Below are positions 10,579-30,745 of a stretch of 32,640 nucleotides of DNA, one piece after another. The first letter of the stretch is position 1. Each line of letters begins with the position of its first letter. The notes under the pieces were generated by a model. The model did no database searches and was not told the DNA's origin. It saw nothing but the letters and a program-made list of their open reading frames with translations. This DNA is from Kiloniellales bacterium (GTDB lineage Bacteria; Pseudomonadota; Alphaproteobacteria; Kiloniellales; JAKSBE01): the NCBI GenBank assembly GCA_022361275.1, contig JAKSBE010000294.1:1-32640 (forward strand), in the 5' to 3' direction. Both the position numbers and the translations under genes were made by a program.

Positions 10579-11985
10579 ATGAAAGACGAAGCCATGACTC
10601 AGGTACCGGCAGACAGCGATCTGATCGCGGCGCGGAAAGCGCCGGCGTCGCTGCTCCGCTATTTCCTGGCCCACGGCAGTTCGGCCGCGGCGATCAAGCT
10701 GGCCGCCGTCATCCTGAGCTACCTCTTCCTGATCCTTCTCGCGCGCAGCGTCGACGAGGCCGAGTACGGCCGCTACGGCTTTGCCATCAGCCTCACGGTC
10801 TTTCTGGGGATCCTGGCGAACTGCGGCCAGGGCATGGCGATCCTCCGCTTCTGGGCGCAGTTCCAGGCCAAGGACGACCCGGCCCGCGCCAAGGGGGCGA
10901 TGCTGCGAAGCTACCTCACGGTCCTGATCGGGGCCGGAGGCGTCGTCGGCCTGGCCTTCCTGGGCGTCGCCCTGGCAAAGCTCCTGAACCCCGCGCTCGA
11001 TGCCGGATATCTCTACGCCGCCGCCTTCCTGACCTTCCCCTCCGCGATCGCCGCCTACCAGGGCGCCGCGATGCGGGCCCTCGGCTTCGTCGCCCGGGCC
11101 ATGCTGCCGACCGACATCTTCCACCGCGGGGTCATGGTGCTCGCCCTGCTCTACCTGTTGGGAAGCAGCCTGCAGCTCTCCGCGGAGCTGGTCCTGTGGA
11201 TTTCGGGTGGGCTGTGGCTGGTCCTCCTGATCCCGCAGGCGGTCAGGATCGTCAGGGAGACGCGGCGCCAGGCCCCGGCGGCCAAGGCCGACCTGGACAT
11301 CCCGGCCTGGCGCGGCGCCAGCCTCGGGCTCTGGGGCCTGGGCGTGCTCGGCATCCTGAGCCAGAGCTCCGACGTGGTGGTGCTCGGCCTCTACTACGGG
11401 CCGGAGGAAACCGGAACCTACTTCGTCGCCCTCAAGGTCGCCTCCATATTCCTGATCTTCTTCGCAACCGCGAACGTCCTGACCGCCCCGATGATCTCCA
11501 GGGCCTTCCACGGCGGCGACCACGACGAGGTGCAGCGGATCTGCCGGACGATCTGCGCGCTTCTGATCCTGCCCGCGGGCTGCGGTCTCCTGATCGTCGT
11601 CTTCGCCGGTGACCTCCTGCTCGGGCTCTTCGGGGCCAGCTTTGCGGAAGGTCACCTGGTCCTGGGCGTCCTTTCCGCCGGCTTCGTGATCTGCGTCCTC
11701 TCCGGCCCCGCCAACATGCTGCTGACGATGACCGGCCATGAAAACAAGTACCTGCAGATCCTGGGCGCGACCCGGATCGCCATGGTCCTCGCCCAGGTCC
11801 TGCTGATCCCGCTCCTCGGACCCTTGGGCGCCGCCGTCGGAAGCGCCTTGGGGCAGCTTGCGCTGGCGGTCTGGAGCCGGAGCTTCGCCGTCCGCCACCT
11901 GGGCGTCGACCCGAGCGTGCTCTGCCTCCTCGAGCGGCAGCCGAGACCGGCCGATCTCACGCAGCCGGATGGCGGCCAGGATTAG
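10579..11985 (+). CDS. Lipid-linked oligosaccharide flippase (Wzx/MATE-like)
   Basis: 468 residues from this start. The protein is almost entirely hydrophobic with about 12 membrane helices. The N-terminal FLAHGSSAAAIKLAAVILSYLFLILLARSVDEAEYGRYGFAISL is typical of polysaccharide transporters of the Wzx/MATE-like superfamily, where the first helix pair is followed by a G-x-Y/G-x-Y turn. It is expected to flip the lipid-linked repeat unit across the inner membrane. The frame is open upstream to 10462, but that would begin inside the long inverted repeat and encode an unlikely basic leader; ATG 10579 or ATG 10594 is more reasonable. Neither has a strong ribosome site. It ends 16 bases before the following glycosyltransferase start. 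Confidence 0.85.
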   Translation: MKDEAMTQVPADSDLIAARKAPASLLRYFLAHGSSAAAIKLAAVILSYLFLILLARSVDEAEYGRYGFAISLTVFLGILANCGQGMAILRFWAQFQAKDDPARAKGAMLRSYLTVLIGAGGVVGLAFLGVALAKLLNPALDAGYLYAAAFLTFPSAIAAYQGAAMRALGFVARAMLPTDIFHRGVMVLALLYLLGSSLQLSAELVLWISGGLWLVLLIPQAVRIVRETRRQAPAAKADLDIPAWRGASLGLWGLGVLGILSQSSDVVVLGLYYGPEETGTYFVALKVASIFLIFFATANVLTAPMISRAFHGGDHDEVQRICRTICALLILPAGCGLLIVVFAGDLLLGLFGASFAEGHLVLGVLSAGFVICVLSGPANMLLTMTGHENKYLQILGATRIAMVLAQVLLIPLLGPLGAAVGSALGQLALAVWSRSFAVRHLGVDPSVLCLLERQPRPADLTQPDGGQD

Positions 11986-22278: not shown

Positions 22279-22430
22279 CTTGAGCGATACCTCTTCTTGG
22301 GCCGTTCGGCGGCCGGGACTGGGAGCCTTTGCTTTTCGCCCGTCCAGGTGATCCGACAAACACCGACCGGATCCCTGCGCCCGCACTATGGCAGAAGGAT
22401 GCCTCGTCTTCTTCCTCGGCGAAACCTCGC

Positions 22431-22485
22431 TAGTGTCCCGATTCTGAAATTCGCGAGAGCGAATTGCAGAATCAAAGGGACACTA
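22431..22485. repeat. Intergenic palindromic element 1 (TAGTGTCCC ... GGGACACTA)
   Basis: Perfect outer arms TAGTGTCCC (22431-22439) and GGGACACTA (22477-22485) enclose ATTCTG/CAGAAT (22441-22446, 22467-22472) and AATTCGC/GCGAATT (22448-22454, 22459-22465) around a GAGA loop. The 55 bases would form one long hairpin in either strand. It lies between two lipoprotein genes on the minus strand and looks like a dispersed intergenic repeat. Confidence 0.85.
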
Positions 22486-22499
22486 ACTCGTTGAATCTC

Positions 22500-22559
22500 G
22501 TGTGATTCAGCTTCCAAATCTCGGCACATGAAATGTGCCGAACTTTGAAACCATCACAC
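22500..22559. repeat. Intergenic palindromic element 2 (GTGTGAT ... ATCACAC)
   Basis: Outer arms GTGTGAT (22500-22506) and ATCACAC (22553-22559) enclose a perfect stem CGGCACAT-gaa-ATGTGCCG (22522-22540), with a further nearly matching TTCCAAA/TTTGAAA between. It follows element 1 by 14 bases. It ends 40 bases from the stop of the BamE-like lipoprotein gene and could act as its 3' hairpin. Confidence 0.8.
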
Positions 22560-22599
22560 TAGGACGAAGCCGGAGGCCGGCCGCGGCGGGTGCCCGGCG

Positions 22600-29133: not shown

Positions 29134-29550
29134 ATGACGAGGCTGACCTTCGTTGTCTTGCTTGGCCTGACGACCGCCGGCTGCTCTACACCCCAGCCCG
29201 TGCTCTATCCCAATGCCCATCTCGAGCGCGTTGGCTCGGCGGCGGCGGAGCGCGATATCGACGACTGCCGGGTCAAGGCCGAGGCCTATGGCGCGTCGGC
29301 GAAGGACGGGACGGCCGGCAAGGTGGCCGGCAGCACGGCTGTCGGCGCCGGCGCGGGCGGCGCCGTGGGAGCCGCCGGTGGCGCGGTTCTGGGCCGCCCC
29401 GGACGGAGTGCGGCCGTGGGCGCAGCCACCGGCGCCACGGCCGGTTTCCTGCGGGGCCTCTTCAAGCCGCGCCAGCCCAGCCAGGTCCACAAGCGCTTCG
29501 TTGAGAAATGCCTTCGGGACCGCGGTTATGAACCGATCGGCTGGGACTAG
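29134..29550 (+). CDS. Glycine-zipper lipoprotein
   Basis: 138 residues. Lipoprotein signal TFVVLLGLTTAGC with Cys17 is followed by a polar segment and a long Gly/Ala-rich zipper (about residues 60-110: VAGSTAVGAGAGGAVGAAGG ...) that alternates small residues every four positions, as in glycine-zipper outer-membrane-associated proteins. A basic C-terminal part HKRFVEKCLRDRGYEPIGWD closes it. Function unknown; such proteins often insert in or stabilise the outer membrane. The start has GGAG six bases upstream. The stop TAG is the first three bases of a palindromic repeat, so the repeat inserted at or replaced the gene end. Confidence 0.85.
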   Translation: MTRLTFVVLLGLTTAGCSTPQPVLYPNAHLERVGSAAAERDIDDCRVKAEAYGASAKDGTAGKVAGSTAVGAGAGGAVGAAGGAVLGRPGRSAAVGAATGATAGFLRGLFKPRQPSQVHKRFVEKCLRDRGYEPIGWD

Positions 29551-29652
29551 AGCAGCCCGCGTTCATTCGAACGCGGATAAGCTGCTCTAACTCTATGGAA
29601 TAGATCAAATGATCTCCGCTCAATTGGACCCAATTGAGCGGAGTTTGATCTA
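29548..29652. repeat. Two-hairpin intergenic repeat, copy 1
   Basis: Hairpin A has perfect outer arms TAGAGCAGC (29548-29556) and GCTGCTCTA (29581-29589) enclosing CCGCGTTC-attc-GAACGCGG. Hairpin B has TAGATCAAA (29601-29609) and TTTGATCTA (29644-29652) enclosing perfect 14-base arms CTCCGCTCAATTGG and CCAATTGAGCGGAG around an AC loop, with a TGAT bulge on the left. The same A+B order recurs about 800 bases to the right. The first three bases are the stop codon of the glycine-zipper gene. Confidence 0.92.
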
Positions 29653-29780
29653 GAGCTAACTTGCGCGTCACCCCCAGCCCTTGATAAGGCGTGTACGCGC
29701 AGCTTGTGATCAGTGCCCTCACTTCAAGGTATGAGCACATGCCTCCCCGCCAGACGCGAAGGCGCCTGATCGGGAGTGCG
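29653..29780. other. Spacer between repeat copy 1 and the YciI-like gene end
   Basis: No gene. A small stem CAGACGC-gaag-GCGCCTG (29752-29769, one mismatch) lies just past the YciI-like stop and could be its 3' hairpin; it resembles the first palindrome after the DeoR gene. Confidence 0.4.
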
Positions 29781-30077
29781 CTAAACCAACTTCTCGAAGT
29801 TGAAGAAGGCCTTGCGCCAGCGCACCACCTCGATGCCGGCGAAGAGCCCGGCCTTGGTGAAGGGGTCGTTCTGGATGAAGGCCTCGGCCTCGGCGCGATC
29901 CTCGGTATCGACCAGGATCACACCGCCGTAGCCGCCCTCGCCCTCGTCGTCGATCTTGGCGCCGGCGGCCAGCAACTTTTCCTTGTTCGCTTCCAGATAG
30001 GCCAGGTGCTCGGCCCGCGTCTGGTTACGCAGACCAAGGCTGTTCGGCTTGTCGACGGTGATGATCGCATAAGGCAT
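29781..30077 (-). CDS. YciI-like (YCII domain) protein
   Basis: 98 residues. The YCII alpha/beta ferredoxin-like fold is recognised by MPYAIITVDKPNSLGLRNQTRAEHLAYLEANKEKLLAAGAKIDDEG, where the His in AEHL is the family's conserved residue, then GVILVDTEDRAEAEAFIQNDPFTKAGLFAGIEVVRWRKAF. Most members are uncharacterised; some are dehydrochlorinase-like or decarboxylating enzymes. ATG 30077 is preceded by GGAG. The gene is enclosed on both sides by palindromic repeat elements and reads against the lipoprotein gene. Confidence 0.9.
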   Translation of the reverse strand: MPYAIITVDKPNSLGLRNQTRAEHLAYLEANKEKLLAAGAKIDDEGEGGYGGVILVDTEDRAEAEAFIQNDPFTKAGLFAGIEVVRWRKAFFNFEKLV

Positions 30078-30245
30078 GAGCGATGGCTCCGGAGGCTGTT
30101 CGGCTGACGGGTAAATCAGGGCCACTGGCAGGACAGACCCCGATTGTGCCACAGCATACCCAGGAAAACCGTCAAGGTCAGCCGGTCCGGGAGCGGAAGG
30201 GGCCTGCTTTCGGCAAAAACACTACCGCGCAGCGCACCACCGTCC

Positions 30246-30294
30246 TAGAGCGGGATGATTTGAAGCCAACGCGGCTTCAAATCATCCCGCTCTA
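30246..30294. repeat. Perfect 22-base-arm palindrome (hairpin C)
   Basis: Arms 30246-30267 and 30273-30294 are perfect inverted copies around the loop AACGC. Like its neighbours it begins TAGAGC and ends GCTCTA. It would form an extremely stable hairpin in RNA or a cruciform in DNA. Confidence 0.95.
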
Positions 30295-30305
30295 CTTCAA
30301 CGGTT

Positions 30306-30357
30306 TAGAACATGATTCAGACGTGAGGCCGATTCGGCCTCACGCCATCGTGCTCTA
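30306..30357. repeat. Palindrome (hairpin D) sharing its end with repeat copy 2
   Basis: TAGAACATGAT (30306-30316) pairs with ATCGTGCTCTA (30347-30357) with two G-T type changes. Inside is the perfect GTGAGGCCGA (30323-30332) with TCGGCCTCAC (30334-30343). Its last TA overlaps the first bases of copy 2, so the units abut through CTAG. Confidence 0.88.
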
Positions 30358-30460
30358 GGGCAGCCTGCGTTCAGTTGAACGTAGATAGGCTGCTCTATCC
30401 ATATGAAACAGACCAAATGATCTCCGCTCAATTGGACCCAATTGAGCGGAGTTTGATCTA
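30356..30460. repeat. Two-hairpin intergenic repeat, copy 2
   Basis: Same order as copy 1. Hairpin A' has TAGGGCAGCC (30356-30365) pairing with GGCTGCTCTA (30388-30397), and CGTTC-agtt-GAACG inside. Hairpin B' has the identical 14-base arms (30422-30435 and 30438-30451) and ends TTTGATCTA (30452-30460). The B part is almost unchanged between copies, while A has drifted with paired changes. The last three bases, read on the minus strand, are the TAG stop of the next gene. Confidence 0.92.
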
Positions 30461-30745
30461 GGACTTGAGGTTCACGGCCTCGACGATGAAACGGCCACGG
30501 CCACGACGGACCGCATAGGCCGCACCGCGCGGGATACGGATTTTATCCATCAAGGGACTCAACGCGTTCTCGATCAACTCGATATTCGGATCAGAGATGT
30601 CTTCGCCACCGGTCTGATCCGTATACCACTTGATGAAGGCTTCGTTCGCGAGCTCTTCACCAATGGACTTTCTCAGGGCGTTGAGCTTGCGCAGTTCGCC
30701 CTTGGTCAGTGCAGCCTCGTCTATCTTAACTTGCTTTTTTGGCAT
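30458..30745 (-). CDS. Small uncharacterised basic protein
   Basis: 95 residues. It has no signal peptide or membrane segment. Lys/Glu-rich KKQVKIDEAALTKGELRKLNALRKSIGEELANEAFIKWYTDQT looks helical, and the second half IRIPRGAAYAVRRGRGRFIVEAVNLKS has a basic Arg-Gly stretch that could touch nucleic acid. I do not recognise the family. ATG 30745 has AAGGAGT six bases upstream, which supports real translation. Its base composition is clearly A/T-richer than the neighbouring genes, a hint of transfer or weak codon selection. The stop codon lies in the palindromic repeat copy 2. Confidence 0.75.
   Translation of the reverse strand: MPKKQVKIDEAALTKGELRKLNALRKSIGEELANEAFIKWYTDQTGGEDISDPNIELIENALSPLMDKIRIPRGAAYAVRRGRGRFIVEAVNLKS

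Follow-up and report, generated by a model that had tools for sequence, protein, structure and literature searches.

The window, that is, the whole stretch of 32,640 nt that was analysed, contains towards its end a gene for a glycine-zipper lipoprotein and one for a basic protein of 95 amino acids, which enclose a YciI-like gene and six hairpins (Table 1). The hairpins lie where the initial annotation had placed them, with D joined to A' through a common CTAG, and its claim of a duplicated two-hairpin unit held in that AB is repeated, with the correction that the real units are AB and CD. The six hairpins constitute three such units, namely AB, CD and a second AB (A'B'), all built on one plan, in which two hairpins separated by a spacer of about 11 nt stand between terminal CTAGs. 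The AB copies are direct repeats of 107 nt with 88% identity, and CD belongs to another sequence family, in which hairpin C is perfect over 22 bp. On the minus strand the CD spacer reads AACCGTTGAAG, so that D represents the A-like and C the B-like half. A family search gave no match for the basic protein, and an Rfam search of the window gave none either. The YciI-like gene also occurs in the congeners G001 and G002, without the elements, and is a host gene lying outside them.

Table 1. Genes, two-hairpin elements and CTAG sites in the window (positions of the window; z, folding energy against dinucleotide shuffles).
Feature	Position	Strand	Evidence and parts
Further CTAG...CTAG two-hairpin element, other family	22430..22562		TIR CTAGTGT; spacer ACTCGTTGAAT; fold z -8.3
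Glycine-zipper lipoprotein gene	29134..29550	+	Pfam Gly-zipper_OmpA, E 1.3e-6; stop used as or at insertion site
AB copy 1	29547..29653	+	107 nt; direct repeat; DNA fold z -11.5; at least 40 genome copies; CTAG, hairpin A 29548-29589, spacer ACTCTATGGAA 29590-29600, hairpin B 29601-29652, CTAG
Left CTAG of AB copy 1	29547..29550		TAG 29548-29550 is the lipoprotein stop codon (ORF list)
Right CTAG of AB copy 1	29650..29653		Sequence
YciI-like gene between elements	29781..30077	-	PF03795, E 2.3e-21
CD element	30245..30358	+	25 full CD copies; fold z -12.6; Rhizobium homologues; CTAG, hairpin C 30246-30294, spacer CTTCAACGGTT 30295-30305, hairpin D 30306-30357, CTAG
CTAG common to CD and AB copy 2	30355..30358		Sequence
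AB copy 2	30355..30461	+	Fold z -7.9; A' 30356-30397, spacer 30398-30408, B' 30409-30460
Right CTAG of AB copy 2	30458..30461		CTA 30458-30460 is the minus-strand stop codon of the 95-aa protein
95-aa basic protein gene	30458..30745	-	ORF list; flanking gene

The folding energies of the three units were far outside those of dinucleotide shuffles (Table 1). Across 52 aligned AB copies, 97.4% of cells pair, and both sides had changed in 92 cells, compared with 30.9 in shuffles (0/500) and at most 19 in slid controls. Within the window, the 14-bp arms of B are identical between both copies, as initially noted, while the paired changes reported between A and A' amount to one compensated pair (C-G to T-A), in agreement with that report, and two G.T changes, which are not. 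A 4-nt bulge occupies the inner arm of A in 46/52 copies and that of B in 45/52, the remaining copies having it on both arms or neither and never on the outer arm alone; given this inner position in both hairpins, the two are mirrored. The paired arm changes would probably be hairpin-templated (quasi-palindrome) corrections. The ATAA/TTAT bulge is gained or lost on both arms together among these 52 copies, possibly a natural record of quasi-palindrome templated mutation.

The hairpins are not confined to the window. The G000 genome (5.95 Mb in 615 contigs), searched with a 120-nt query, contains at least 40 AB units of 85-92% identity in both orientations, a lower bound for which 40 of 174 candidates were scored, and similar numbers were found in G001 and G002. 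A profile search of the retrieved loci identified 72 distinct full AB copies and 25 CD copies, of which 55 and 14, respectively, have CTAG at both ends. This tetranucleotide is strongly depleted, with 18 occurrences observed against 99 expected in the window and 258 against 1,164 in 383 kb of a congener. A raw count of TAGAGC-N-GCTCTA (73) was dropped as a measure of copy number, the reversed control pattern having returned 72, nor do we claim that AB is biased in its orientation towards the gene (25 vs 11), a difference that weakened once CD was placed in homologous orientation. The genome G025, from the same order, yielded 60 hits for TAGAGC-N15-45-GCTCTA, the control pattern yielding 20, and represents another lineage rich in such palindromes.

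Units of other sequence with the same plan were found at L099:17444, in L114 and at 22430-22562 of the window, the last having relatives beside the L010 element and in L093 (about 11042-11193). By eye, the spacers are alike once read in the same direction: ACTCTATGGAA in AB, AACTGTTGAAA in CD, AACTTATGGAA, ACTCTCTGAAGG and, in the element at 22430-22562, ACTCGTTGAATC. A short spacer (about AACTnnTTGAAA/T) appears to be common to families with differing hairpins, namely AB and CD in G000/G001/G002 and those of Rhizobium (L197-L208), and this likeness suggests either common descent or a bound site. In a Rhizobium sp. Q54 MAG, an element at L185 2134-2249 combines an AB-type A hairpin with a second hairpin of another kind, as though families had swapped hairpin modules; it starts with TAG, possibly a stop codon.

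All three elements are absent from the window locus in G001 and G002. The CTAG of the basic protein is present without an element in both G001 (TTCCTAGGACTTGAG) and G002 (TACCTAGGACTTGAG), and since this stop CTAG (CCTAGGACTTGAG) occurs in both element-free congeners, it is older than the elements; the CTAG at 30458-30461 is the ancestral target. Element-free relatives have a single CTAG where the window has CD and AB sharing the CTAG at 30355-30358, an arrangement that reflects insertion of one element into a terminal CTAG of the other. At the opposite end of the locus, the lipoprotein of G001, which lacks AB copy 1, terminates at the same codon, there TGA (GGCTGGGATTGA).

About 20 other loci were compared at their junctions after their anchors had been mapped to G001/G002 in a concatenated-anchor search, which was used instead of an earlier BLAST of G000 loci against G001 stretches picked for elements, where few orthologues were found. 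Both flanks align and the empty allele holds exactly one CTAG in the pairs L019/L156, L038/L130, L038/L121 and L002/L124; a pre-existing CTAG stop lies on one flank at L022, L024, L027, L033, L039, L045 and L012; and elsewhere the congener ends the gene with another stop codon, at the same position or close to it (for example TGA at L013 and TAA at L019/L155). Moreover, different CTAG hairpin elements adjoin the stop at L002 in G001 and the one at L021 in G002, which indicates that the same site was used independently. Strong stem covariation and a position at gene ends would also suit intergenic structures that are conserved and immobile (RNA elements or transcription terminators, for instance), but such structures are very hard to reconcile with orthologous loci that lack the elements at precise boundaries, with two congeners devoid of all three window elements, and with one stop codon bearing different elements according to species (the L002 locus in G001, the L021 locus in G002); this explanation is therefore extremely improbable, a secondary role as terminators being possible. 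The proposal that the hairpins form a BIME-like family that is mobile and dispersed and has CTAG junctions is borne out by the dozens of copies in both orientations and by the clean empty sites that the congener comparison revealed.

The outer TAG is the stop of a coding ORF in 42/71 testable copies, compared with 50/216 other CTAGs (Fisher p = 6e-8) and ~21% of random positions (both strands counted), coding ORFs being judged by codon-usage score and the 216 other CTAGs being a sample from G001. Two convergent genes have their stop codons at the two ends of the L019 element; in G002 they share one CTAG. Both outer TAGs of the window locus act as stops of the flanking genes, as the initial annotation recognised (Table 1). 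Its further statements, that the hairpins 'supply' stop codons and are 'able to redefine gene ends', had to be abandoned, as the stops or stop positions already exist in element-free relatives, both in the congeners and at the Rhizobium empty sites described below, and the insertions hit pre-existing CTAG stops with the gene end unchanged. Creation of the stop codons by the elements is ruled out by these two sets of empty sites; the stop codons are landing sites, and the elements leave gene ends where they are.

Palindromic CTAG at both ends fits, taken alone, a 2-bp duplication, a 4-bp duplication or single-strand insertion beside CTAG, and cannot separate them. The two ends of L040 differ, one being TTAG and the other CTAG, with TTAG as the empty site in G002, and L042 displays the same asymmetry; wherever ends are unequal (TTAG...CTAG), the inner G and C are constant. 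L040 and L042, few copies as they are, fit a TA duplication inside CTAG/NTAG better than one of 4 bp. This has a bearing on a possible origin as MITEs that would belong to an IS5-type element, or to another DDE element, and duplicate 4 bp (CTAG/YTAR). MITEPsy1 provides a model for such an origin, as an element of 100 nt that duplicates CTAG or YTAA (PMC3189936), and the copies counted above with CTAG at both ends agree with it. The constant inner bases and the TTAG empty site are better explained by TA duplication, however, and IS630 elements with GAGC ends are present in the same genomes, so that an IS5-type origin is considered unlikely.

IS630 inserts at the TA in CTAG according to Tenzen and Ohtsubo (1991), as cited in PMC2170065, and the IS630 family duplicates TA (PMC2170065). 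A complete IS630-type element was identified in L112 (1398-2454), where both ends, CTAGAGCG, enclose a DDE_3/IS630 transposase (NF033545, E 1.9e-39), and further IS630 termini in L189, L190, L191, L192 and L193 all meet CTAG. An IS630 of Bosea carries TAGAGC at each terminus and is bordered by CTAG on either side; a related IS630 of Sinorhizobium has TAGAGC at one end. The hairpin elements have CTAGAGC plus 1-4 nt in common with the resident IS630 ends, with no longer homology, and some ends differ, GATC, GCGC, GGGC or GTGT taking the place of GAGC in some elements. No autonomous IS630 copy carries the hairpins, and the draft assemblies contain few IS630 copies. As in an IS630-type MITE, the elements are non-coding, short and multicopy, with precise empty sites, and show CTAG-preferring insertion at TA with duplication of the site, where duplication of TA only is read from the few unequal-end copies.

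A REP-type or IS200/IS605 transposase acting in trans, suggested in the initial annotation, was not supported. G000 and G001 each have a single Y1 gene, partial in G001, and G002 has two; the transposases of L065, L108, L109 and L110 are of two kinds, with their own long, unrelated repeats (GGGGTCAGAGTC..., GGGGACAGTATAC...), resembling the TIR-flanked tyrosine transposases ('TIRtrons') of PMC3733652. No CTAG hairpins were found beside the examined Y1 genes in the flanking sequence retrieved from the three genomes searched, and a matching RAYT/IS200-type partner was accordingly rejected as a candidate, the Y1 genes being associated with other repeats. A REP/REPIN (BIME) identity, with movement by a RAYT or IS200/IS605-like tyrosine transposase and single-strand insertion beside CTAG, would account for the two mirrored imperfect hairpins with their inner-arm bulge, the length of about 107 nt, the extragenic position and the many copies, and GTAG REPs are known to give flanking ORFs TAG stop codons (PMC3733652). 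Yet the tag of these elements is CTAG at both ends and not GTAG or CGTC at one, as the definition in PMC3733652 has it, and the tetranucleotide is pre-existing target DNA rather than a sequence carried in by the element; together with the few Y1 genes and their unrelated repeats, this renders a REP/BIME identity quite unlikely.

We consider it likely that these hairpin units represent miniature transposons (MITEs) of the IS630/Tc1-mariner type, non-autonomous and targeting CTAG. Each comprises two quasi-palindromic hairpins, mirrored and joined by a spacer of 11-12 nt, and would be moved in trans by an IS630 transposase. The target is a CTAG, rare in these genomes and often a TAG stop with C before it, and insertion at its TA, with TA presumably duplicated in preference to all 4 bp of CTAG, turns CTAG into CTAG-element-CTAG. 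Because the duplicated site re-creates an outward TAG on both sides, each flanking gene keeps its stop, which makes the insertion harmless and explains why the elements are found at gene ends.

The CD unit as query also matched Rhizobium plasmids, in which the homologous two-hairpin CTAG elements measure 116-118 nt; the homologue L197 (117 nt, CTAG at both ends) was located 1,490 times across 378 plasmid records, of which 356 are from Rhizobium. The CDS ends exactly in the terminal CTAG at 9/11 annotated Rhizobium loci, most of which were picked for a CDS lying under the match, a way of choosing loci that favours such an outcome. Empty and filled alleles were recovered here as well: L214 reads GATGC-CTAG-AAGCG where L200 reads GATGC-CTAG-element-CTAG-AAGCG, L212 and L206 form a likewise empty and filled pair, and the last base of the annotated CDS is the same whether the element is there or not. 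The Rhizobium elements are probably RIME1 repeats (Rhizobium-specific intergenic mosaic element). Osteras et al. are said to have described RIME1 in 1995 as a repeat of about 108 nt with two large palindromes, intergenic and dispersed in rhizobia; the Rhizobium CTAG elements would be alike in their two palindromes and their intergenic, dispersed occurrence. Neither insertion at CTAG or stop codons nor a link to IS630 was found described for RIME1 in the literature searched; PMC2573895 treats intergenic repeats of rhizobia as sequences whose function is unknown. On balance, we lean towards a wider reading, in which two-hairpin MITEs of Kiloniellales and rhizobia, probably including RIME1, would use TAG stops as a safe harbour, IS630-type insertion at CTAG re-creating an outward stop at both ends, even at overlapping convergent stops (L019), with neither protein changed.

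Such a landing rule is simple and offers a testable mechanism for dispersed alphaproteobacterial palindromes, the probable RIME1 among them: the self-complementary CTAG holds TAG on both strands, so that after insertion at a stop both flanking genes would keep theirs. It also corrects a likely misreading, in that repeats seeming to 'provide' stop codons may have just landed there.

Among known systems, the IS630/Tc1-mariner elements IS630 and ISY100 show the TA duplication, and the resident IS630 has the same TA-GAGC ends as the elements; however, unlike these insertion sequences, the elements described here encode no protein. The RUP repeat of Streptococcus pneumoniae, likewise a non-autonomous repeat of 107 bp, has the same terminal repeats as IS630-Spn1, which has been proposed to move it in trans (PMC3049150), and is the accepted parallel, the comparison concerning mechanism only. 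RUP is densest 50-150 bp from genes (PMC3049150), whereas the present elements lie exactly at stop codons, and RUP is described as folding with its terminal repeats paired together instead of forming two separate hairpins. GTAG REPs, REPINs and BIMEs with RAYT resemble the elements in their mirrored hairpins, extragenic position and a foot TAG that is often a stop (PMC3733652), but differ from them in that the latter have CTAG at both ends, no RAYT partner and a tetranucleotide that is duplicated target. MITEPsy1 of Pseudomonas syringae, finally, is likewise a MITE of 100 nt at CTAG sites, but has 18-nt ISPsy2-type terminal repeats and a 4-bp duplication, with two-hairpin structure going unreported in the available part of its description (PMC3189936).
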